Below are positions 1,895 through 23,592 of a stretch of DNA of 32,025 nt, one piece after another. The DNA lies in assembly GCA_013202295.1 (NCBI GenBank), contig JABMRT010000218.1:1-32025 (forward strand). Direction: 5' to 3'. The stretch is from Candidatus Zhuqueibacterota bacterium. Its GTDB lineage: Bacteria > Zhuqueibacterota > QNDG01 > JABMRT01. The notes below the pieces were generated by a model. That model saw nothing but the letters and a program-made list of their open reading frames with translations. It searched no databases and had not been told where the DNA came from. How positions within the stretch are numbered: position 1 is the stretch's first letter; every line of letters begins with the position of its first letter. The position numbers were made by a program, and so were the translations under genes.

Positions 1895-2872
1895 TCACTT
1901 CTTATAACACACATAAATATCTGCCTCAATCATCACACCGTCAATAAAATAATGATGTACAAAATAGAGATTTCCAAACTTGTCCATCGTAGGTTCGCCA
2001 GCAAACTGGGAAAGCACCAATTCCGGTTCTTGCCATTCACCCTCTGATTTAATGGACCGATACACTGCCGGAGAACCGAGATAGGTTCTGGTAAACCACA
2101 ATTCACTGCCATCCGGAGTCACATAGGGCCAACCATCAGTCTCGGTTGAGTTTAAAATTTCTACAAGTACAGGATTTTGCCAGGCACCATTCACCTTTGT
2201 CAACTTCCAAATATCATACTGACCCTTACCCCCTGCCTTAGCGGAGTGATAGTACAACTCATTTTCATGAATATGTAATTCGCCCACTTCATAATCAGAA
2301 TTAAAATCCGCTTTCTGCCAGTTCGTCCATGCCCCATCCACATAATCCGCGCTAAACCAGTGCAATCCAGTATACCCTTCTCTGGCGGAGACAAACAACA
2401 TTTCATTGCCCTGAATGAACTCAGCACCGTCCAAAGACAATTTCCCCGGATCCTGCAACCAGATCCGTTCAGGCTCCTGCCAGTTTCCCTCTTCATATTT
2501 GGACATATAGATCCCGGTCACATCATCACCTACCTGCTGTTCTGCTGGCACACTCACGTCCGGGGTAAAGAAAAAATAAAACTCATCCCTATCTACGGGG
2601 ATAAAAGGCGAATCTTCCCCACCCGCCGTATTCACAGGGCCAGGCAAGGGAACAGGATTTTCCCATGCATCCAGATGTAAAACAGGGGGATACACATCCG
2701 TCTCTGGGGTCATTTTGACCGCGTCATCCGGAATTTTCTCTTCCCGTGTCACATCCGGATATTCAGGATCAGGTTCGGTTGGATTTTCTTCACATGCCAT
2801 GAGCAGAAATAATGCAAAAGCCATTATAAAAATAAAGGAGCCGAGTATTGTTCCATTCTTAATGCATAACAT
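1895..2872 (-). CDS. Lipoprotein with PD40/TolB-like beta-propeller repeats
   Basis: This 325-residue protein starts with a hydrophobic signal peptide and a lipobox (LLMAC, Cys27), followed by a Pro/Glu/Asp-rich linker (NPTEPDPEYPDVTREEK). The rest contains repeated WD40-like PD40 blades (DEFYFFFTPDVS, NEMLFVSAREGYTGLHWFS, ELWFTRTYLGSPAVYRS, GNLYFVHHYFIDG). Such proteins are often surface or periplasmic lipoproteins near glycan-degradation genes, but the ligand is unknown. The start is supported by GAGGTGG four bases upstream of the ATG. It lies 87 bases downstream of the GH106-like gene in the same direction and may be the last gene of that transcript. Its linker is nearly repeated in the mini-lipoprotein at 10499-10753 (about 30 of 34 residues identical by eye). 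The fold class is likely; the function is not known. Confidence 0.82.
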   Translation of the reverse strand: MLCIKNGTILGSFIFIMAFALFLLMACEENPTEPDPEYPDVTREEKIPDDAVKMTPETDVYPPVLHLDAWENPVPLPGPVNTAGGEDSPFIPVDRDEFYFFFTPDVSVPAEQQVGDDVTGIYMSKYEEGNWQEPERIWLQDPGKLSLDGAEFIQGNEMLFVSAREGYTGLHWFSADYVDGAWTNWQKADFNSDYEVGELHIHENELYYHSAKAGGKGQYDIWKLTKVNGAWQNPVLVEILNSTETDGWPYVTPDGSELWFTRTYLGSPAVYRSIKSEGEWQEPELVLSQFAGEPTMDKFGNLYFVHHYFIDGVMIEADIYVCYKK

Positions 2873-2959: not shown

Positions 2960-5900
2960 TTAAAATGCAATCACCTCAAAATCCTCAAACAGCCCGTATC
3001 CATCCAGGTCATATTCAGCTCCGGCAGGCTGGACATCAGGTGCATATTTAAAGCTCCATGGAGTGACTATCCCGCGACGCCGGACATGATGGTGCGGACC
3101 TAGTACATTCTTGAGTGATCCATAGACAATCACCTCAATCCGATTGGTTCCAGTCTGAATCCTATCGGAAATATCAAGCTCATAAGGCTGCCACCCGATA
3201 AATCCACCATACTCACCATTGACACGGACTTCCACGGCTGATCCCGACCATTTACCCAGTTTGACCTTAACCTTTTGATCTTTTAAAATCCGGACAGTTT
3301 TTTTATAGGCTACGCCATCGCTATAGAACGGTAATCCCTGGTCCTTCCATGCACCAAACTGCTGCTTCAATGCAGCAGGAACCATTATCCACCCTCTATC
3401 CCCGGACTTGAGACTGAAGTTACCAATAATGTAGACCGGTTCAATCTCCGCAAATATCGACATGGGAGTCACTGCAATCGTCACATCATTCTCACCGGGC
3501 CGGATGATTGGGCCAATATTAAACACGCCAAAATCTTCATCTAGCCACCACTCGCCTTCTACAGGCTGGATTTCATTACCATTCACCGAAACGGTCCAGC
3601 GCCAGGGTTGTTCCACCACAGCCTGCAGGGAGGAAAAATCCACAGCCTCTTCAACCATAAAAGGAAAACGAGCCGTAAATCCGGTGCCTTCAGCGAATGT
3701 GTCTGCATCGACCCACTCGGTCTTAAACTGCGAAGACGACACCCAGGGATTATCCGGATACCCATGCGCCTGCCAGATTTTAAATCCGCCCGAATAAAAA
3801 TAGATATCTTGATGCATCGTATCTGCCAGCGACAAATCACAATAATCAAGCGTTTGCACATTGGGTTCCACCCGCTCAATCTCCGATGGATCAGAAGGGA
3901 TGATCTTATCGGATTTGGGCTTGTCCGGGATTGGGAACTGTTTTTCAGTTTCGAATACAAACAACAACAAACTTCCTGCAGGTTGGATATTGATCTCGAA
4001 AGACACGGATCCCTGTGTCGTTATCGCCGGATACCCTGCCACCTTTCCCGTCATTGCATCCAGCTGGATCACAGAAGCTCCCTCCATACTGATGGAGGCT
4101 GTGGATGCCTCCTCCAAACTGGAATTGACCAGAAACAAGAGCTGACCATCAGAAAACCGACGGCGGTGATGAAAAAGCTGACCGCTGATCCGAAGTGGAT
4201 CAGCTATCTTAAAATCGGATTCGCTCAGCTGGTGAATCACTTTCGACAGGGAAACAGCCTTCTGTACTTTCATTTGGTCAGCTTTGAATCCATCGACATC
4301 GGCCCGCATCAACGGCTTGTTTGAAAACGATAATATCCTACCGCCTGTTTCTATAAAAGTAGCAAGCAAGTCAGCAGTCCAAGACTCCATGACCTCATAC
4401 TCCGGAGGCAACAGAACAAAATCATACGCCCTTTGTCCGATGATTAACTTTCCGTCGGATGATGAGCCATGGTTTTTAATGGTATTTTCGCATCCCAGAT
4501 CATATTCGATTTGATGGTTTTCAAGCTCTGCCAGGAACGTGTGAAAGGAATCACCAATTTGATTGAGCTTTTTATTCGTATGTGTCGGCGAATAATACAT
4601 CCAGGTTGTTGAAGTCGGTTCAATCACAAGTATTCGGTTATTCTGTTCACCCGAAGCCATCGCCACAGACAACCGCGCAAAATACTCTGCCTGATGCTTG
4701 TACAAATGCCACCAGGGATCATGATAACTGAACGACTGTGGAAAGTCGTGCTTGCGGTCTCCGATCAAGGTCATATAGGTTAAGTGCTGATTCATGAAGT
4801 TCACACCCATGACATATTCCCAATCCCCAAGCCGCTTCATATCTTCAAAACGGAGTTCCCATCCCGCAGCACCGTAGGTTTCACTCAGGGTACGTTTTCT
4901 TCCCATTTGATTGGCGATACTGCGCAGTTCCTTCACTGCGCGGATATTGCCGAATTGCGTGTCATTCTGGTCCATGGTATTGAACAACATGTCAATCGCT
5001 GGCACCTGATGCCATGCGTACATGGCCATATTATCCCCTCCATGATGCGGGCTCGGCCAGCCATGCTCCCAGTAATGCCCAGTCCATTTCAGGTTGTGCT
5101 CTTCCGTGTATTCGAACCAGGGTTTAGACCAGCGTTCAATAAACAGTTCAAGCAGCAGACAGTAATGATCATGACGAACCTTTTTCCAATGTCCGACCTC
5201 AGCGAACAGAGATGGCAAGTTTACTTTCAGTTCATAGCCCCAACGCTCCTGAAACCGATCGAACAGATCCGGTGTCCAGCGAATCGATTCTCGTGAGGGT
5301 GTGGCGATATTCGGCTCATCTGTGAAAACACCCGGCACTGTCTTGCCGAATTCAGAGCCAATAGATTTTTCATATCCTGTCATTGTCACATCAATAAATT
5401 TCTCAGTTACACCGGGATATATAAGATCCACATAGGAAAAACCCGCATGCCATTTGGATTGCCCGTAGCTCACCTTGGAGAAAGTGCGAAAGTCTCCCTC
5501 TAGACCAGGCTTTGGATCGGCAACTACCTTGAATCCTTTTTCGGATTTTTCAAGGACAATAAAGAATTTCTCATCAACATCCGTTGGCAATGTGGAGAAT
5601 TTTTCCTGAACGAGTCCCTGGCCATGCTGATAAGAATCCGGCATTTGGTCAGGTACATGACCGCCCGCAAATCCACTCGGGAAGGAATTCTCATCATAAA
5701 TCCATGCCTGCATACCGAGTGATTTTGTCTTCTTCACAGCATGCTGAATGAGGTCGAACCACTCATCCGAGAGGTATTCCGTGATGATTCCATACCGGGG
5801 ATGCATGAATACGCCGCCGAACCCCTGTTCCTTTAAATCTGTAAGATCCCGGTCGATGCGTTCTTTCTGCACCCTGTCGTGCCAAACCCAGAAAGGCGCC

Positions 5901-6055
5901 GTGCGATATGAGGTTGGTGGATTTTCAAAGTGTGGAATGAGTTGATCAACTGTTTGGATGTCAAGCTCTTGCCAGGGATCAGGGCGAGTCGGTTCGCACG
6001 CTAGAATAAATAAATAAAGTAGAATCGTACATCCAATTTTAGCTTTCACTTTCAT
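2960..6055 (-). CDS. GH106-like glycoside hydrolase (alpha-L-rhamnosidase type), lipoprotein
   Basis: This 1031-residue protein has a lipoprotein signal with lipobox ILAC (Cys20). The N-terminal catalytic region shows the hallmark series of the GH106/rhamnosidase-like family: TAPFWVWHDR (53-61), FGGVFMHPRYG (79-89), MQAWIYDENSFPSG (115-128), FTDEP with Glu247, and LSETYGAAGWE with Glu392, followed by YHDPWWH. The glutamates are the likely catalytic residues, by family analogy. A C-terminal beta-sandwich resembling GH2 sugar-binding domains follows (residues about 900-1010, VEVRVNGEYGGFIGWQPYELDIS). GGAGG lies six bases before the ATG. It is 69 bases downstream of the aldo/keto reductase on the same strand. 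The substrate is not proven: rhamnosylated plant or algal glycans are the family expectation, and other activities are possible in this broad group. Confidence 0.8.
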   Translation of the reverse strand: MKVKAKIGCTILLYLFILACEPTRPDPWQELDIQTVDQLIPHFENPPTSYRTAPFWVWHDRVQKERIDRDLTDLKEQGFGGVFMHPRYGIITEYLSDEWFDLIQHAVKKTKSLGMQAWIYDENSFPSGFAGGHVPDQMPDSYQHGQGLVQEKFSTLPTDVDEKFFIVLEKSEKGFKVVADPKPGLEGDFRTFSKVSYGQSKWHAGFSYVDLIYPGVTEKFIDVTMTGYEKSIGSEFGKTVPGVFTDEPNIATPSRESIRWTPDLFDRFQERWGYELKVNLPSLFAEVGHWKKVRHDHYCLLLELFIERWSKPWFEYTEEHNLKWTGHYWEHGWPSPHHGGDNMAMYAWHQVPAIDMLFNTMDQNDTQFGNIRAVKELRSIANQMGRKRTLSETYGAAGWELRFEDMKRLGDWEYVMGVNFMNQHLTYMTLIGDRKHDFPQSFSYHDPWWHLYKHQAEYFARLSVAMASGEQNNRILVIEPTSTTWMYYSPTHTNKKLNQIGDSFHTFLAELENHQIEYDLGCENTIKNHGSSSDGKLIIGQRAYDFVLLPPEYEVMESWTADLLATFIETGGRILSFSNKPLMRADVDGFKADQMKVQKAVSLSKVIHQLSESDFKIADPLRISGQLFHHRRRFSDGQLLFLVNSSLEEASTASISMEGASVIQLDAMTGKVAGYPAITTQGSVSFEINIQPAGSLLLFVFETEKQFPIPDKPKSDKIIPSDPSEIERVEPNVQTLDYCDLSLADTMHQDIYFYSGGFKIWQAHGYPDNPWVSSSQFKTEWVDADTFAEGTGFTARFPFMVEEAVDFSSLQAVVEQPWRWTVSVNGNEIQPVEGEWWLDEDFGVFNIGPIIRPGENDVTIAVTPMSIFAEIEPVYIIGNFSLKSGDRGWIMVPAALKQQFGAWKDQGLPFYSDGVAYKKTVRILKDQKVKVKLGKWSGSAVEVRVNGEYGGFIGWQPYELDISDRIQTGTNRIEVIVYGSLKNVLGPHHHVRRRGIVTPWSFKYAPDVQPAGAEYDLDGYGLFEDFEVIAF

Positions 6056-7013: not shown

Positions 7014-7955
7014 TTAATGAATTTTCGCCTGAATTCCATATGCCTCAAACTGCGCAATAATTTGCTCTTGCCTTTCTTGATCCGGAGCGACCATGGTCTG
7101 TGAAGTATGATCCTGGCCAAGTTTCTTGTGCTTGTTGTCTGCAATGTTGTGATGCGGCAATAGATCGACTCCCTTTATATCGCCAGCCAATCTGGCAATG
7201 AACACTGCAGAATCTTCAATGTTTTTAGGATCATCATTGATGCCCTTAATCAAAGGGATCCGAATTGTAATGTTCGCTCCCACTTCTGCGAGTGCTTTCA
7301 GATTATGAAGTATGATTTCATTGTCTACACCTGTATATTTTTTATGCATTATGGAATCCATTATTTTCAGGTCATATAAAAACAAATCCACCCTTTTTGC
7401 CACATTCAGGATGGTTTCTGTTTCCGCATAACCGGATGTATCAACGGTTCGATGGATGCCCTTCTTCCCACACGCGTCAAGGAGCTGGATTAAAATATCA
7501 GAACACATAAGAGGTTCGCCACCCGAGAAAGTCACTCCCCCACCGGATTGGTCAAAAATCAGAACTTCCTTCTCAAGAATTTCCATGAGGCTTTGGACAG
7601 TCTCTGGGCGGCCAGACATTTCGGTTGCTTTGGTAGGACAGCTTTCCGCACATTGCCCACAGACTATACAACGATCTATATATGTAATGATGCCGTCAGA
7701 GGTTAAAGTACAGGCATGTTCAGGGCATATTTTAATACATTGCTCGCAACCGATACATTTCGCTGTAGAATACATTTTTTGTACATCAGGGGAACGGCTT
7801 TCAGGATTGTGACACCAGATACAGGAGAGCGGACAGCCTTTCATAAACACAGTTGTGCGTATTCCCGGCCCGTCATTGATTGCATAGCGCTTGATATCAA
7901 ATATCAAGCAGGAATATACATCCGAGGAATCCACTTTATCAGGAAAACTGGCCAT
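7014..7955 (-). CDS. Glycyl radical enzyme activating enzyme (radical SAM)
   Basis: This 313-residue protein carries the radical-SAM motif CPLSCIWC (Cys41, Cys45, Cys48) and an inserted pair of ferredoxin-type 4Fe-4S motifs (Cys67/70/73/77 and Cys96/99/102/106), as in the larger GRE activases rather than the short PflA type. VTFSGGEPL is the usual SAM-binding segment. It would abstract the Gly767 hydrogen of the adjacent glycyl radical enzyme, using S-adenosylmethionine under anaerobic conditions in the cytoplasm. The ATG at 7955 is preferred: it lies four bases after the hypD stop with AGGGG upstream, whereas the next upstream ATG would overlap hypD by about 50 bases. The pairing is unambiguous from the context. 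Confidence 0.93.
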   Translation of the reverse strand: MASFPDKVDSSDVYSCLIFDIKRYAINDGPGIRTTVFMKGCPLSCIWCHNPESRSPDVQKMYSTAKCIGCEQCIKICPEHACTLTSDGIITYIDRCIVCGQCAESCPTKATEMSGRPETVQSLMEILEKEVLIFDQSGGGVTFSGGEPLMCSDILIQLLDACGKKGIHRTVDTSGYAETETILNVAKRVDLFLYDLKIMDSIMHKKYTGVDNEIILHNLKALAEVGANITIRIPLIKGINDDPKNIEDSAVFIARLAGDIKGVDLLPHHNIADNKHKKLGQDHTSQTMVAPDQERQEQIIAQFEAYGIQAKIH

Positions 7956-7959
7956 GCCC

Positions 7960-10338
7960 CTAAAACGCCTCGTTTTCAGTACGGGAAATGATCTCTTCCT
8001 GAAGATCTTCATTCATATCATTAAAGTAGTCGCTGTATCCAGCCATTCTTACAAGAAGATCTTTGTAATCCTCAGGTGTTTTCTGAGCTGCTCGAAGCGT
8101 GGCTGTATCCACGATATTGAATTGAATGTGATGACCACCCAACGCAAAATAACTTCTGATCAGGCTGGCCAGCTTGGTGATATCCTCTTCCTTTTTAAGA
8201 AGATTTGGAAGGAACCGCTGGTTCAGAAGTGTACCGCCGGATTTCACCTGATCGATCTTGGAGAGCGATTTGATCACTGCGGATGGACCATGCGTGTCAC
8301 ACCCTTGGGAGGGGGACGTGCCATCAGAAATCGGTTTTTCCGCCAGACGGCCATTGGGTGTTGCGCCAAGTACCTTGCCGAAATAGATATGACAGGTTGT
8401 TGAAAGCATGTTCAGATGATACTTGCCATTCTCCTTGATGTTGGGCTTGTCATCAATGGCTTCAAACAAATCATTATAGACTTGCGTGGCGATGCTGTCA
8501 GCATAATCTTCATCATTTCCAAAGAAGGGTGTTCTGGTCAGGATTTGTTGCCGCATCACCTCTTCACCCTCAAAGTTTTTGGAAACCACTTCAAGGATCT
8601 TGCTCATATCATACGTTTTCTCTTCAAACACATGCTTTTTAAGTGCGGCCAAACTGTCCGTCACTGTACCGAGACCGCAACATTGAATATAATTGGTATT
8701 ATACCTCGGCCCGCCATTATAATAGTCCCTGCCCTTTTGAATACAGTCATCGATCACAACAGAGAGAAAAGGAGCCGGCGCATACTTTGCGAACATTTTA
8801 TCTATATAGTTATTGACACTGATTTTCTGATCAATGATAATATTCAATTGTGTTTTAAAAGCCGTGTATAAATCTTCAAAGGATTTAAACTTGAGTGGAT
8901 CGCCTGTGGCAATCCCCGCCACCTTGCCAGTGCCCGGATCAACGCCATTATTTAAAGTCACTTCCAGGATTTTGGGGACATTTAAATAGCCAGTGAGTAA
9001 GTATGCTTCCTTGCCGAAAGCCCCTGTTTCGATGCACCCGCTACAACCGCCTTCCCGCGCATCTTCAATGGATTTACCGGATCGCAGCATCTGCGAAACA
9101 TATACATCCGGATTAAACACAGCCGGATACCCGTACCCTTTTCGGATGACTTTGCATGCAGTATTCAGAAACCGATTGGGTGTCACATGACTGATATGAA
9201 CGGAATTTCCCGGTTGTAGAATATGAAGTTCTTCGATAACTTCAAGCATGATATAGGAAACCTCGCTCACTCCATCAGATCCATCGGTTTTCACACCGCC
9301 AATATTGATATTCGTAAAATCATTGTATGTGCCACTCTCCCTGGCGGTGATGCCCACCTTGGGGGGAGCCGGATGATTGTTTACTTTGATCCAGAAACAA
9401 CTGATCAGCTCTTTGGCCTGGTCTCGTGTAAGTGTTCCTATTGCAATTTCATCCTCATAAAACGGAGTAAGGTGCTGATCAAAATGACCGGGATTCATCG
9501 CATCCCAGCCATTCAGTTCTGTAATCGTGCCCAGATGAACAAACCAGTACATTTGAATGGCTTCCCAAAAATTGCTGGGGGCATGCGCCGGTACCCGGCT
9601 GCAGACTTCAGCGATTCTTTTCAGTTCAGCAACGCGTGTCTTGTCTTTCTCCGTTTTGGCCATTTCATCTGCCAGATCTGCATGACGCTCAGCAAATACA
9701 ATAACCGCATCACAGGCTATATCCATCGCTTTGAGTTGTTCCGCCTTTTCCGTGGCTTCGGTGTCATTCAAATAGTCCAGGGATTCGAGGTGGTCCTTGA
9801 TTTCCTGTTTAAAATCCAACATGCCCTTCCTGTAGATCTTGCCATCCAAACAGGTATGCCCCGGAGCTCGCTGCTCCATGAACTCTGTAAACAATCCCGC
9901 TTCATATGCGGCTTTCCATTCATCCGGGACGTGATTAAAAATACGCTCGCGCTGCGTTCTTCCCATCCAATAAGGGATGACCTCTTTCTCGTACGTCTTT
10001 ATATCCTCATCACTGATCGTATATCTTTGCTTATCTCTGGTATTCAGTACATGGAAATCTTCAACACTGTGACAGGTCAGTTCAGGAAAAGTGGGAACCG
10101 CCTTGGGACACGGGCCCCGCTCTCCAACGATCAGCTCGTCATCGCCGATGTATATGGTTTTTCGTTTGCATAATTCAAGGAAGTTCATGGCTCGAAGAAT
10201 TGGAATGGAGTACTTCCCGTAATTCTCTTTATAGAATTCGGTTTCAATAAGAGCCCGTTCAATTGAGAGTGACGGCTCTGCTTCGACACTCAATTTTCGA
10301 AGCTTCTGAATTCTTGCATTCATTATAGATCCAATCAT
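7960..10338 (-). CDS. hypD: Glycyl radical enzyme, trans-4-hydroxy-L-proline dehydratase type (HypD)
   Basis: This 792-residue PFL-like enzyme has the thiyl cysteine segment GGCSGCIETG (Cys435, Glu437) and the C-terminal glycyl loop RMAGYSDYF (Gly767). Compared from memory with characterised Clostridioides difficile HypD (789 residues), it matches along its whole length and keeps its described active-site set: Phe153, His161, Asp279, Ser335, Asp340, Phe341, Cys435, Glu437, Tyr451 and a Thr in LSTTCHIYFG. The predicted reaction is radical dehydration of trans-4-hydroxy-L-proline to 1-pyrroline-5-carboxylate, in the cytoplasm and without oxygen. The residue before SGC is Cys instead of Thr. The start is either 10338 or 10323; the latter has a weak GGAT upstream. 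It is the first gene of a tight cluster with its activase. No proC lies nearby. It is unrelated to hydrogenase-maturation HypD. Confidence 0.9.
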   Translation of the reverse strand: MIGSIMNARIQKLRKLSVEAEPSLSIERALIETEFYKENYGKYSIPILRAMNFLELCKRKTIYIGDDELIVGERGPCPKAVPTFPELTCHSVEDFHVLNTRDKQRYTISDEDIKTYEKEVIPYWMGRTQRERIFNHVPDEWKAAYEAGLFTEFMEQRAPGHTCLDGKIYRKGMLDFKQEIKDHLESLDYLNDTEATEKAEQLKAMDIACDAVIVFAERHADLADEMAKTEKDKTRVAELKRIAEVCSRVPAHAPSNFWEAIQMYWFVHLGTITELNGWDAMNPGHFDQHLTPFYEDEIAIGTLTRDQAKELISCFWIKVNNHPAPPKVGITARESGTYNDFTNINIGGVKTDGSDGVSEVSYIMLEVIEELHILQPGNSVHISHVTPNRFLNTACKVIRKGYGYPAVFNPDVYVSQMLRSGKSIEDAREGGCSGCIETGAFGKEAYLLTGYLNVPKILEVTLNNGVDPGTGKVAGIATGDPLKFKSFEDLYTAFKTQLNIIIDQKISVNNYIDKMFAKYAPAPFLSVVIDDCIQKGRDYYNGGPRYNTNYIQCCGLGTVTDSLAALKKHVFEEKTYDMSKILEVVSKNFEGEEVMRQQILTRTPFFGNDEDYADSIATQVYNDLFEAIDDKPNIKENGKYHLNMLSTTCHIYFGKVLGATPNGRLAEKPISDGTSPSQGCDTHGPSAVIKSLSKIDQVKSGGTLLNQRFLPNLLKKEEDITKLASLIRSYFALGGHHIQFNIVDTATLRAAQKTPEDYKDLLVRMAGYSDYFNDMNEDLQEEIISRTENEAF

Positions 10339-10498: not shown

Positions 10499-10753
10499 CT
10501 ATCTAATCAACATAAGCTTGATTGTTTTTATCTCATTACCATTCTCAAATCTGCATAAATACACACCACTAGGAACATCCGTTTCCGGCGTCATTTTAAC
10601 CGAATCCTCCGGGATCTTCTCTTCACGTGTCACATCCGGATATTCGGGATCCGGCTCGGTGGGTTTTTTTTCACAGACCACGATTAAAAGCGATAGAATA
10701 AGAGCAGCAACTGTTTCGGCCCGGAAATTCACTCTGATTTTTATTCGTTTCAT
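10499..10753 (-). CDS. 84-aa chimeric mini-lipoprotein: lipoprotein leader fused to a T9SS tail end
   Basis: The ATG at 10753 sits seven bases after AAGGAG. The product has a signal peptide with lipobox LIVVC, a linker (KKPTEPDPEYPDVTREEK...) almost the same as that of the lipoprotein at 1895-2872, and then the last strand of a T9SS type A sorting domain (PSGVYLCRFENGNEIKTIK, ending LMLIR). No propeller or other folded domain lies between. Over about 105 bases the DNA is roughly 83% identical to the paralogue, with about 30 of 34 residues kept, so many differences are synonymous. It may be an internal-deletion remnant or a genuine short lipoprotein. It follows the transglutaminase-like gene by 31 bases on the same strand. 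Confidence 0.65.
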   Translation of the reverse strand: MKRIKIRVNFRAETVAALILSLLIVVCEKKPTEPDPEYPDVTREEKIPEDSVKMTPETDVPSGVYLCRFENGNEIKTIKLMLIR

Positions 10754-10784: not shown

Positions 10785-11732
10785 CTACTCGGGTTTCTCA
10801 AAAAACCGCAACGCATTTGTTGTAAAGATACGATTTGGATTGTCCTCCTCCTCAGCTGCGAATCCCTCTGGAATCAGATGCACTTTGACAACCGGTCCTG
10901 TACTTTCATAATTGAATTTGCTCGCCTGAGGGCAGGATGCCTGAAAAGCGTTTTTTGCCATATAGACGGTGTACCACTGATCGTACGATTCGAACGCTAT
11001 TCCGAAAAGCATGAGAGAACTGAACGGCTGCATCTGAATGGATCGGAATCGGGGAACTCGTCCCCCGCAATAGGCTTCTCGTATCTCGAGATAACCCAGC
11101 GGATTTCCTGATCCATCATGAAAAAAAGTATTGAATGTGGGATCAAGGCAAATCCATTTTTTCATGGAGGGACTGTAAATGGTGACGATGGAGTGTGTAT
11201 CCCCGTCAAATTGAGATGGCATACAGGAGATTCTCCTTGACTTATAGCCGAAGGCCAGCAGAATTTCGTTCAAAACAATGGATTTCATCCAGCAATTCAG
11301 AGCATAATGATGTTTTTTCTGAAATTGGATGATCGCGCGGGCATTCAATGTATCCGGATTCATTATAAAATTGTTTTGACTGTCGGTGATCTGGTGCACC
11401 CAATCCATGAGATTGAGGAGTCTTTCCATTTCCGGACCGGTACCGGCGACCTTTTTGAGATCGTATTTTTTAATGAATTCGGCCAATTCTTTTTCCGTAG
11501 ACTCATACTGCCATCCAGGTTGAATTGAAGCCACATCCACATCGGAAAATCTTGGATAGGATTGAAGACGATGAACGAATGTATCAAACATGTTTTGCTG
11601 GCTTTCATTTAAATCTAACACAACCGGAGATTGTTGGCAGAATATTGAAAAAAGTGAATTTAGCAAAAGGACAACAATGCCCGACCTGAGAAAACTTTTA
11701 CAAATGTAAGTCTGATATTGTTTATCTACCAT
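10785..11732 (-). CDS. Transglutaminase-like (papain-fold) protein, putative lipoprotein
   Basis: This 315-residue protein starts at the ATG at 11732, seven bases after GGAGG. The N-terminus has a hydrophobic helix ending in FSIFC (Cys32), a plausible but imperfect lipobox. A transglutaminase-like core follows, with the Cys-His-Asp order of the family: ALNCWMKS (Cys147), GDTHSIVTIY (His180) and ICLDPTFN (Asp197). In bacteria this fold includes proteases, peptidases and cross-linking enzymes, so the reaction cannot be named. Cell-envelope location is inferred from the leader. It lies 82 bases after the carbohydrate-binding protein gene and 31 bases before the mini-lipoprotein gene, all on the minus strand. 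Confidence 0.78.
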   Translation of the reverse strand: MVDKQYQTYICKSFLRSGIVVLLLNSLFSIFCQQSPVVLDLNESQQNMFDTFVHRLQSYPRFSDVDVASIQPGWQYESTEKELAEFIKKYDLKKVAGTGPEMERLLNLMDWVHQITDSQNNFIMNPDTLNARAIIQFQKKHHYALNCWMKSIVLNEILLAFGYKSRRISCMPSQFDGDTHSIVTIYSPSMKKWICLDPTFNTFFHDGSGNPLGYLEIREAYCGGRVPRFRSIQMQPFSSLMLFGIAFESYDQWYTVYMAKNAFQASCPQASKFNYESTGPVVKVHLIPEGFAAEEEDNPNRIFTTNALRFFEKPE

Positions 11733-11768
11733 GATATATCCTCCAAAAATTAATACCACAACATCATT

Positions 11769-19554: not shown

Positions 19555-19683
19555 CTACCTGATCAATGTCAACTTGATGCTTTGAATATCTACCCCATTC
19601 TCAATACTGCAGAAATACACGCTACTTGGAATATGGATTCCTGAATTGTCATGACCATCCCGGATGACTTTATAGTCATTGAT
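19555..19683 (-). pseudogene. Decayed T9SS type A sorting-domain tail
   Basis: A 42-codon open segment with no start codon ends with a TAG stop and encodes the end of a T9SS sorting domain. DYKVIRDGHDNSG corresponds to YEIMWDGRDSTG in the GH10 xylanase next door, and VYFCSIENGV followed by IKLTLIR corresponds to LYFCRIENGE followed by IKLTLLK. The normally conserved Trp is Arg, one base away. An in-frame stop lies just upstream, and the first half of the domain is missing. It sits 49 bases beyond the stop of the heparinase-like lyase, so it may be that gene's lost C-terminus or the last trace of another secreted protein. Confidence 0.75.
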
Positions 19684-19732: not shown

Positions 19733-21613
19733 TCACCATTCAACCAACTTTGTTGTTCTAATTTGTTTTGGAGGATTTGTACCTTCCGGAATCAACAACA
19801 CAATTAAATCTTTTTCCTGATTTGGAGCCAGTTCCGTTTCAAATCCCAACATGACCGTACCCGGATTCTTGTCTTCAAAATCATTTTGCGGATCTGTGGA
19901 ATACAATTGTATTTTCGCATCAGAGGGTTGGACAACCTGAAACGTCAACGACTTGCCCTCTTTCTGGATAATCGCTGTTAGCTCATCAACCATTTCAACA
20001 GAATCATGCGTGACCATGCCCCAACGTACGATGGAGGTTGCATCATTATTGGACAATTCATCGCGAACCATCACATACTCACTATCCACAATAGCAATGC
20101 CGCGAATCGCTGTTGACAACTGTTCTGCATAGACAGGTGACATGTCCACAACCGTGTACATGAAATCGGGATCTTCATCGGAATGTTTTAGAAGCATCCC
20201 TTCTGCATTCACGATCTGTGGAGCATCGTCCACAACCAGCGTATTGTGCGAAAGATTGGAGTAGCGATAAATTTGCCATCGCTGTCCCTCCGGACTGCGA
20301 TCCCAGAGTTGGACACCCTGCATTTCAAGTCTATTATAGTTATGCATACCCAGGTCCATGGCCCAGCGCACACCGAGCGCGTCCATCACAAAAGAGCCAA
20401 TATCCATGTGGCCGTGATTGATGCCCGGCGAACCACCCTTGATGCCGATAAAGATGGCGTCATCATCCCATGAAGTGCGGTGCAGGCTGACTGGATTCTT
20501 ACCCTGTCCCATCCATGACAGTTCTGAGGGAGGACGATGGTTAAGAGAATCGAGCCGGCTGCCCCAGATCAACATCATGGGCAAAAACCGGTTGGACAAT
20601 CCTGTGGCTTCAAGCGGTTTTTCTTTTTGGATCATTTTTTCAATTAACTCTTTTTGGTACCAGAGAAGCCCCGGATCATTCGTACGATTCGCGAACCAGA
20701 ACACCGCAGGCGCCAATCCCTTTCCGTAACGGCAGTCTGCGTAATTATAACTGCCCGTGGGACCGTGCACATGCAGGTAATATTTCGCACTTTTTATAAA
20801 TCCATCCCCGACAATCAAATCCTGTTTATCGGGCCATACCGATTCATAGGCATCAATCAGCAGCACATGAAACGTGGTGCCATATCCCCAATAATTTGCC
20901 CCCTCCGGATAAGCTCCATCCGGTTCATACTCTGCATCCGGCAGCGCAATGCTCCGTTTTGCATTCTTTATAATGGTGGATGCCAGCTCCGGCTCATCTT
21001 CATAAATCGCCAGTGCGCCAAACACCATACCCGCGTTGCAGACTTGGTTCCAGTTGTGCTCAGCTTGGAGAAACCAGGTATTCTCTTCTTTGAGGGATGG
21101 ATGCAATCCCTTATTCAAGATGGCCTTTTTTATAATTTGGCGGGATTCTTTACTCAAATCAGGATAAAGCCAATCATACCCGATAGCCAGAGCCATGGTC
21201 ATTTCCGCCACATCCAGAAAATGGGAAGGATTCCAATCCGAAAACCTAGAAGCGGCTAGCATCTCCGATTCTGCTTTATCTAAATATTTAAAATCTTTCG
21301 TCATTCGGTAGGCATAGGAAAGCGCAATCACCCGTTTCAAACAAGTGCGAGATATGCCTAATAACCGTCTCCCGATCTGCTCGCGTTTTACCTCCTGAAG
21401 CGTAAGCATTGCATCCGCCTGCACGAGAATGCGGTCATGCAGTTCCTGCATCATTTCGCTCTGGGATATTCTTGTTCGGAGCACTTTCTCATCCCCGACC
21501 TGCAAGATGATTCTGGGATGATTCGGAATGCCTTCTATCTGAGTATTTCCAATCCCTGCAAGAATGAATATGCAGATAACGAACATGATGTGGGATGTTT
21601 TTTGTAATTTCAT
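19733..21613 (-). CDS. Heparinase II/III-like polysaccharide lyase, secreted
   Basis: This 626-residue protein has a Sec-type leader (residues 1-24), an N-terminal alpha/alpha-toroid with family segments AEHNWNQVCNAG (184-195) and PDGAYPEGANYWGYGT (231-246), and a C-terminal heparinase II/III-like beta-sandwich with NHGHMDIGSFVMDALGVRWAMD (399-420), whose histidines fit the metal or catalytic sites of the superfamily. Such enzymes cleave uronic acid-containing polysaccharides by beta-elimination (alginate, heparin, ulvan-like). The substrate cannot be read from sequence. It starts 23 bases after the GH10 stop, so the two are probably one transcript. It has no T9SS sorting domain, but a decayed one lies just downstream. 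Confidence 0.85.
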   Translation of the reverse strand: MKLQKTSHIMFVICIFILAGIGNTQIEGIPNHPRIILQVGDEKVLRTRISQSEMMQELHDRILVQADAMLTLQEVKREQIGRRLLGISRTCLKRVIALSYAYRMTKDFKYLDKAESEMLAASRFSDWNPSHFLDVAEMTMALAIGYDWLYPDLSKESRQIIKKAILNKGLHPSLKEENTWFLQAEHNWNQVCNAGMVFGALAIYEDEPELASTIIKNAKRSIALPDAEYEPDGAYPEGANYWGYGTTFHVLLIDAYESVWPDKQDLIVGDGFIKSAKYYLHVHGPTGSYNYADCRYGKGLAPAVFWFANRTNDPGLLWYQKELIEKMIQKEKPLEATGLSNRFLPMMLIWGSRLDSLNHRPPSELSWMGQGKNPVSLHRTSWDDDAIFIGIKGGSPGINHGHMDIGSFVMDALGVRWAMDLGMHNYNRLEMQGVQLWDRSPEGQRWQIYRYSNLSHNTLVVDDAPQIVNAEGMLLKHSDEDPDFMYTVVDMSPVYAEQLSTAIRGIAIVDSEYVMVRDELSNNDATSIVRWGMVTHDSVEMVDELTAIIQKEGKSLTFQVVQPSDAKIQLYSTDPQNDFEDKNPGTVMLGFETELAPNQEKDLIVLLIPEGTNPPKQIRTTKLVEW

Positions 21614-21636: not shown

Positions 21637-23592
21637 CTATTTTAACAAAGTGAGTTTAATCATTCTGGACGATTCACCATTCTCAATTCTGCAGAAATAC
21701 AATCCACTGGTGACTGCACTCCCTGTACTATCGCGCCCATCCCACATGATCTCATATTGCCCTGGCTGTTTGATCTCGTCTACAAGGCTTCGGATTTCCC
21801 GGCCCAGCGCATTATAAATGGTAATTCTTATTCTGGACTGTAAGGGCACGCTGTACTTAATCGTAGTGACTGGATTAAAGGGATTTGGATAATTGTCGAA
21901 AACGTAGAATTCATCCGGCAAGCTTGCCAATCTCTTTACAGAACTGGATGCTTCTCCATTTGCTGTATCCACATAAGCGCTCAGCCATTCCATGGCAGGT
22001 CTCTCTGATCCGTTGGTGTTGATCAGGATTGCTTCCGAATTCCCCATTCCTGGTCTCCAGCCAGAGAGGGATATACCCACAACACCCGGATGTTCCCAGA
22101 ATGTGGGGAATATTCTCATATATTCGTTTAATTGATCCTCTTCAGTTGGCGCATTCACACCGGTACCCGATCCTCCATCAATATTCATTTCAGTCACAAT
22201 GATTGACAAACTGGTTTCAGCAAGGCGATCCAGATTCGATGATACAGTAGACATGGATCCCCTTGTGGAGAAAGCATGTCCCTGAACACCTATGCCGTCT
22301 ATCAAATCCCTTCCAAGCAATATATTGACAATCTCCAGATAAGCTGTGGTTGTGCTCGTACTATTCGGGATACTATAGTCATTCAGTATTAACATGGTGG
22401 ATGCCGGAAAATATTCCTTTGCAAGTTCAAAAGCTTTTATCACCCAATCCCAACCTGTTCCATAAAGATCATTATTACCGCCAAGCGCATTAATATAATT
22501 GCCTCCGCCATTATCATTTTGATTCGGCGGATCATGCAATGGTTCATTAACCACTTCCAAGACATCAATTTCCGGATATCTTTCCGCGACAGCGGCAAAC
22601 CATTCTTCAATTTCTTCAAGCTGTTCTTCTGGCGGTAACGTTTCAATCCACTCAGGCTGCTGATTTCCCCAGATCAGAACATGATGCCTGTACGGGAAAC
22701 CATTGTCTTTGGCCAATGCATAGGCCGCATCCAAAGGGCCCCAGTTCATATTATCCCGAGTCCCTTCGACACTACCCCATTTCCCAGGATTTCCCGGTAT
22801 AACCTGATTCCAGTATTCTGTAAACCGGTACAATTGACTTTGGGACCAAACATTGCCAAAATACTTGCTCTTTCCCTGGGCAAGCGGTTCTCTGGCAGGT
22901 GGTTCAAAAATATCAGTTGGATCTGTAAGAGATCCTGCCTGCACACTGTCCAAATTTTCAACTGTGAAATAGAGCTTGGACTTACCAAAAGCAAATTTAT
23001 CGATATCGAGACCGTTTTCTCTCGCACCAATGGAAAAATTTCTTGTCAGATCATCTGGATTGTCAATCGTAAAATCTCTGGATTCTGCCTGATATGCATT
23101 ACGTGACAGATTAATCCATTTCCAGACATTGCTACCCTGTCCACCTGGATCCCGAACCACATCATCTGAGTTGGAAAAACCAGCAGAAGCAAGACCATTA
23201 CTCAGGATCCAATCATTGGCATTTGTACTATTTTTTTCTCCAAAACCATTTCCATAAAAGAAACTGTCATCATTATAACCTCCAAACCCAACAAGCACAC
23301 GTACAAAAATATCGTAGGTGCCTGTGTCTGGGAAGGTGACGTCATAGGAAGCCGTTCTGTTCTCTCCGGGATAATTTGCCGTACCTGAAGTTTCGTCATA
23401 ATCGGTTGAAATGGTAATATATTGCGCATCACCGGATTGGAGATTGTTAAACTCTGAGCCCAATGCACCAGATTCTGCCTCAACAATAATTGGGTATCTG
23501 TCAGGATCTTGTCCATATCCCGCAGAATAAACGACCAGGGAAAGAAACAACACAATTAATACGAACATTTGTTTTCTCATTTTTACATCCAA
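21637..23592 (-). CDS. GH10 endo-1,4-beta-xylanase with N-terminal CBM and T9SS sorting domain
   Basis: This 651-residue protein has a Sec signal (about 1-27), a beta-sandwich carbohydrate-binding domain (about 33-202, with ARENGLDIDKFAFG), a GH10 barrel (about 235-540) and a T9SS type A sorting domain (566-651, starting NYPNPFNPVTTIKY). GH10 catalytic residues are the acid/base Glu350 (EVVNEP) and nucleophile Glu468 (IVTEMN). Other GH10 marks are KWGSVEGTRDNMNW and HHVLIWGNQQPEW, where the usual WH is WG. The product would cleave xylan backbones at the cell surface or outside the cell. Start codons at 23592 and 23580 are both possible, with GGATG upstream of the second. It is first in the operon with the lyase. 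Confidence 0.92.
   Translation of the reverse strand: MDVKMRKQMFVLIVLFLSLVVYSAGYGQDPDRYPIIVEAESGALGSEFNNLQSGDAQYITISTDYDETSGTANYPGENRTASYDVTFPDTGTYDIFVRVLVGFGGYNDDSFFYGNGFGEKNSTNANDWILSNGLASAGFSNSDDVVRDPGGQGSNVWKWINLSRNAYQAESRDFTIDNPDDLTRNFSIGARENGLDIDKFAFGKSKLYFTVENLDSVQAGSLTDPTDIFEPPAREPLAQGKSKYFGNVWSQSQLYRFTEYWNQVIPGNPGKWGSVEGTRDNMNWGPLDAAYALAKDNGFPYRHHVLIWGNQQPEWIETLPPEEQLEEIEEWFAAVAERYPEIDVLEVVNEPLHDPPNQNDNGGGNYINALGGNNDLYGTGWDWVIKAFELAKEYFPASTMLILNDYSIPNSTSTTTAYLEIVNILLGRDLIDGIGVQGHAFSTRGSMSTVSSNLDRLAETSLSIIVTEMNIDGGSGTGVNAPTEEDQLNEYMRIFPTFWEHPGVVGISLSGWRPGMGNSEAILINTNGSERPAMEWLSAYVDTANGEASSSVKRLASLPDEFYVFDNYPNPFNPVTTIKYSVPLQSRIRITIYNALGREIRSLVDEIKQPGQYEIMWDGRDSTGSAVTSGLYFCRIENGESSRMIKLTLLK

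Follow-up and report, generated by a model that had tools for sequence, protein, structure and literature searches.

In this study, we analyzed a 32,025-nt stretch of DNA from a Candidatus Zhuqueibacterota bacterium (contig JABMRT010000218.1, hereafter the window), which holds on its minus strand an 84-residue reading frame composed of three parts: a signal peptide (26 residues), a tether (34 residues) and the end of a type IX secretion system (T9SS) C-terminal domain (24 residues). Read directly, the frame at 10499–10753 runs from ATG to TAG; the original prediction was right that an open reading frame exists here but had left out its strand, and a plus-strand reading of the same positions contains stops. 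The features at the locus are as follows:

10499–10753, minus strand: 84-residue chimeric reading frame, with ATG at 10753 and TAG at 10499–10501
10676–10753, minus strand: signal peptide, codons 1–26, then Cys27, with the lipobox LIVVC and Val at position -1 (from the sequence and the comparison with lip325, see below)
10574–10675, minus strand: tether, codons 27–60, a close copy of the lip325 tether (DNA and protein alignment)
10502–10573, minus strand: last 24 residues of a T9SS C-terminal domain, with motif D (PSGVY), motif E (KTIK) and the end KLMLIR, corresponding to positions 47–70 of the 72 in TIGR04183
10761–10767, minus strand: Shine-Dalgarno-like AAAGGAG, 7 nt before the ATG (read directly)
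10785–11759, minus strand: upstream gene from the list of open reading frames, ending 31 nt before the 84-residue frame

The codon-use score of the frame was 0.21, versus at most 0.01 in the other five frames, and differed between its parts (tether 0.44, signal peptide 0.01, tail 0.09). The upstream gene is without a Pfam family and has homologs in two of 81 other genomes of the phylum; a transcript of the 84-residue frame could come from it. A glycyl radical enzyme gene begins 160 nt beyond the frame. This enzyme, encoded by positions 7960–10338, is a trans-4-hydroxy-L-proline dehydratase (NF043068, 1199 bits), with its activating enzyme gene at 7014–8012. The dehydratase has 82% identity with its counterpart in G018, a genome from another family of the phylum, versus 53–56% in the other nine matching genomes, same-family G001 included, which suggests transfer from lineage to lineage. 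Two of its homologs, G006:C134:9511-11880 (L160) and G003:C82:4428-6788 (L162), contain one in-frame TGA each, which could stem from error, decay or recoding.

The front half of the frame has its source family within the same window, for which two further features are relevant:

1895–2872, minus strand: lip325, a full-length lipoprotein with a tether and a predicted propeller-like domain, representing the source family of the front half (homology and fold model)
2694–2802, minus strand: 109-nt block of lip325 in common with 10575–10683 (DNA alignment)

It had been proposed that leader and linker together closely copy this lipoprotein, at about 83% DNA identity, with 30 of 34 residues equal and mostly synonymous differences. 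Those values were confirmed for the tether: 10575–10683 and 2694–2802 are 83% identical over 109 nt (E 5e-27), 30 of the 34 residues from the Cys on equal those of lip325, and 13 of the 17 nucleotide differences in the 34 codons are synonymous, an identity that by alignment is far above chance. The claim of a close copy did not extend to the signal peptide, in which codons 2–26 share 31 of 75 nt with lip325, as compared to 22.6 ± 3.6 for shuffled codons, with 82 of 5000 shuffles reaching 31; the two signal peptides thus appear distantly related at most. Past the shared block, identity to lip325 drops sharply (16 of 72 nt). The match runs as far as ...ACGGATGT and ends abruptly, and motif D of the T9SS tail opens at the next codon. 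A DNA search of the organism's own genome matched the front half to lip325 only.

The fold model of lip325, built on a shallow alignment of seven sequences, has a mean pLDDT of 70, with residues 26–58 under 50 and a beta-rich domain beyond them. Solved structures of the GH43 and GH62 types, which we take to be five-bladed propellers, align to approximately residues 66–325 (best Z 19.4, rmsd 3.1, 233 residues aligned), and most fold matches begin at residue 64–77; searching PDB sequences with the lip325 alignment produced no firm match (best E 0.052). The tether of lip325 is therefore predicted to be disordered and to end where the propeller-like domain begins. The 84-residue frame ends in the T9SS piece and the propeller-like domain is absent from it, so that, on this model, it would keep the disordered tether and none of the folded domain. 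In the relatives set of 59 genomes, strong matches to the lip325 family were found in three (its own, G002 and G004), increasing to seven at E <= 1e-6, and the family is also present in G063 and G074. It occurs in addition in eight contigs (L035-L042) with titles naming Micrarchaeota, Nanoarchaeota, Woesearchaeota, Dehalococcoidia and Patescibacteria MAGs, a spread over archaeal and bacterial MAG contigs that reflects either wide transfer or binning errors. Directly upstream of lip325, positions 2960–6055 encode a GH106 rhamnosidase-like protein with a canonical lipobox (ILAC).

In lipoproteins, the residue just before the lipobox Cys is usually Ala, Gly or Ser. The frame has a basic start and a hydrophobic stretch followed by Cys27 (MKRIKIR...LILSLLIVVC), as a bacterial lipoprotein should; the Val at -1 falls outside the usual residues, which leaves the description as a lipobox leader a weak one and makes lipidation of the product doubtful. 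The Val is a mild sign of decay only, as the rule may be applied loosely in this family: among 12 lip325 relatives the residue before the Cys is Gly in nine, Lys in L045 and Phe in L085, and L040 is without the lipobox Cys altogether.

The tail of the frame proved to be the last third of a T9SS domain. Residues 58–81 match positions 47–70 of the 72 in TIGR04183 (E 0.004, 17.1 bits), a score below the curated cut-off of 23, and Pfam gave no match to the 84-residue frame at E <= 0.01. Both motifs named and defined for the end of such domains (PMC5445135, PMC11969387) are recognizable, motif D (PxGxY) as PSGVY and motif E, KxxxK-like with a basic end, in KTIKLMLIR, whereas TIGR04183 positions 1–46, and with them motif B, are missing. 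The identification of a T9SS tail end consequently holds for those 24 residues, at a sub-threshold score. The two tails nearest to it by DNA, among the own-genome loci compared, both lie in the window:

19555–19634, minus strand: decayed orphan T9SS tail, the nearest DNA relative (72.5% of 80 nt; DNA comparison)
21637–23592, minus strand: GH10 xylanase-like protein with a complete T9SS tail, the second nearest (69% over 72 nt; Pfam, TIGR04183 and DNA comparison)

The orphan tail can be called decayed because it has no ATG, a stop lies 42 codons before its end and its motif D has been altered to PSSVY; the stretch it belongs to (19555–19683, minus strand) sits downstream of a heparinase-like gene at 19733–21613. 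Given that both nearest tails are in the window, one as a decayed orphan, a tail gene has been broken here before.

The best matches to the two halves also bear on the possibility that the frame is an assembly error uniting two unrelated pieces. The window is one of 303 contigs in a draft assembly and the joint was seen in no relative, both of which are compatible with such an error. However, neither half has an identical counterpart elsewhere in the genome (best values 83% and 72.5%), and the few bases shared at the joint would seem too short for a usual assembly overlap, making a misassembly very unlikely.

The genome as a whole provides the context for a T9SS tail. It encodes the T9SS translocon, SprA (844 bits over the frame), and no fewer than 150 tails in it exceed the Pfam cut-off (150 of 291 candidates scored). 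Regions retrieved for 60 of those tails yielded 42 tailed frames, 38 of them with an upstream stop and 33 with a called signal peptide, the count of cargos being made on the latter and leaving out the other nine. None of the 33 sampled cargos carries a canonical lipobox, and neither did any of the 30 frames with a signal peptide among 37 in an earlier, stricter pass; the same caller found a canonical lipobox in seven of seven control N-termini. The signal peptide of T9SS cargo is described as cleaved by type I signal peptidase (PMC5445135), and the titles and abstract beginnings of the literature searched held no report of T9SS cargo that are lipoproteins, which is not proof of absence. A lipoprotein carrying a T9SS tail would be odd, and that oddity speaks for a chance fusion. 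A search for literature on truncated T9SS tails or pseudogenes likewise found nothing, again without this being proof of absence. By a rough count, 24 of the 33 cargo N-termini (L092-L151) have Ala, Gly or Ser followed by Gln somewhere in residues 15–48, resembling the Q-rule of Bacteroidetes, which is described as characteristic of those bacteria rather than of the FCB group at large (PMC5837995). Short tail-only frames of 79–112 residues in this genome were considered as parallels to the 84-residue frame and rejected, as their positions suggest genes cut by contig ends: in C59, C131, C152 and C238 the contig end is close to the tail, and C81, C134 and C268 start at it.

Among the 12 lip325 relatives, the 11 that could be read to their ends have no T9SS tail; the twelfth, L042, has a broken frame. 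This result and the cargo survey both bear on how the halves came together. The original prediction had offered an internal deletion frozen in frame, in which one ancestral protein already possessing lipobox, middle domain and T9SS tail was shortened. That would be the simplest event, a single deletion in a single gene, but it requires a combination seen in none of the 33 cargos with a called signal peptide and in none of the 11 relatives read to the end, and we regard it as improbable. Because the relatives are tail-less and the cargos without lipoboxes, a fusion of two genes is favored over an internal deletion in one. The deletion part of the original idea is thereby the better supported one, although two genes would have been fused rather than one shortened.

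Searches of other genomes found the short form nowhere else. Simple decay had been said beforehand to show itself in absence from relatives together with a broken frame in sister strains, and the first of these is what was found: the fused form occurs in none of 81 other genomes of the phylum at E <= 1e-4, a set that includes none of the same genus, and the other matches in that search were four places with frames of 335–794 residues. A looser search (E <= 1e-3) gave 14 places in 12 of 58 other genomes. Of the six that were read, two were lip325 relatives and four were ordinary T9SS tails, including a 90-residue frame close to a contig end (L022); at the remaining eight, only the tail region matched, in frames of 221–1306 residues. 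Viral contigs and plasmids yielded no relative. The upstream gene and the glycyl radical enzyme were used as synteny probes in related genomes, and in G061 a homolog of the former sits behind a T9SS-tailed gene. The parts of G061 and G018 that were searched contained no parent of the short frame, the relatives' neighborhoods read showed no full-length parent at this locus, and beside the 84-residue frame itself no other remains of a supposed parent were found.

The predominance of synonymous differences in the tether had been taken as a hint of selection on the short protein, and calculation of dN/dS had been proposed as a check. The values are low: dN and dS over the 34 tether codons versus lip325 were 0.051 and 1.23 (NG86), 0.048 and 0.99 (LWL85), and 0.063 and 0.54 (YN00), i.e., dN of 0.048–0.063, dS of 0.54–1.23 and a ratio of about 0.04–0.12. 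In a simulation with 18 random changes (17 were observed), none of 20,000 draws gave four or fewer amino-acid changes. We nevertheless rejected the low ratio as proof of selection on the short form, because full-length relatives have conserved this tether as well: eight of its columns show no variation across seven sequences, and most of the 12 lip325 relatives share the core KIPxDAVKMTPETD. To judge from these alignments, it is the full-length protein that is under a constraint, one that can be older than the truncation, and a low dN/dS between a fragment and its full-length paralogue consequently carries little information on the fragment itself. At the two alignable sites among the four amino-acid differences, the residues of the short form (E and S) occur in none of the 12 relatives, whereas those of lip325 do occur among them; this leans toward relaxed constraint in the short form, with two sites being too few to decide.

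The best reading of these results, and one we hold to be probably correct, is that the frame is a chimeric relic, isolated and still open, left by a deletion or by illegitimate recombination. A lip325 paralogue would have been severed where the disordered tether gives way to the folded domain, and its front part fused in frame to motif D of the T9SS C-terminal domain from a neighboring cargo gene, at a short run of bases common to both (around GATGT / TTCC). The event would presumably be recent and the relic without function; its product, if made, would pass through Sec, be poorly lipidated if at all, and consist of a floppy tether of 34 residues and two leftover beta-strands. In favor of a relic is the loss of the canonical lipobox. 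Several observations point in the other direction, namely the frame itself, which is intact, preceded by a good ribosome-binding site and 31 nt away from the upstream gene, the completeness of motifs D and E in a tail that begins with motif D, the coincidence of the joint with a domain border in lip325, and the failure to find either adjoining parent remains or a full-length parent here in the relatives' neighborhoods read. As a relic, the frame would be ordinary, as in-frame deletion fusions are to be expected in a genome with at least 150 related tail domains.

The observations just listed raise the alternative that the frame encodes a working minimal T9SS peptide that is carried by its signal peptide to the periplasm, where motifs D and E alone engage the type IX translocon, so that the tether ends up on display or free outside the cell. 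The presence of SprA and of so many tails in the genome is in keeping with this, as are the intact frame and ribosome-binding site and the length of the tail: 24 residues are kept, and in HBP35, whose T9SS signal is placed in its final 22 residues, motifs D and E included (PMC11285876, PMC5445135, PMC11969387), those 22 sufficed for export of GFP via the T9SS in Porphyromonas gingivalis (PMC5445135). The retained piece happens to agree with what is the smallest T9SS signal known. On the other hand, motif B is missing here, and a motif B mutation is reported to have blocked secretion of RgpB (PMC11969387); moreover, the tether would be the sole cargo between signal and tail, and no short form was found in the 81 other genomes of the phylum. 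We therefore consider a working peptide unlikely. Less likely again would be its fullest form, the smallest natural T9SS cargo, derived from two neighboring fused genes, in which motifs D and E by themselves bring about export, and perhaps anchoring, of a disordered tether, with neither motif B nor a folded cargo. The working small surface lipoprotein of the original prediction is less well supported than the relic. Should the frame work, it would offer a naturally occurring case in which to ask whether type IX export can do with motifs D and E or also requires motif B, a question on which the cited papers, as far as they are quoted here, point both ways.

Three known systems come closest to the frame. 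With the lip325 family (1895–2872; L035-L042, L044, L045, L084, L085) it has in common the 34-residue tether, Cys27 and the family-invariant residues, whereas the propeller-like domain (lip325 residues 66–325) is wholly absent from it. With the T9SS type A sorting domain (TIGR04183 / PF18962) it shares motifs D and E and the basic C-terminal end, in contrast to positions 1–46 of 72, including motif B, which it does not have. The short T9SS domains described in Prevotella intermedia (PMC11969387) retain motif B, have 40–55 residues, a length that argues against a working tail of 24, and belong to real cargo, of which there is none here; they are, however, like the tail of the 84-residue frame in being reduced domains that have kept motifs D and E.
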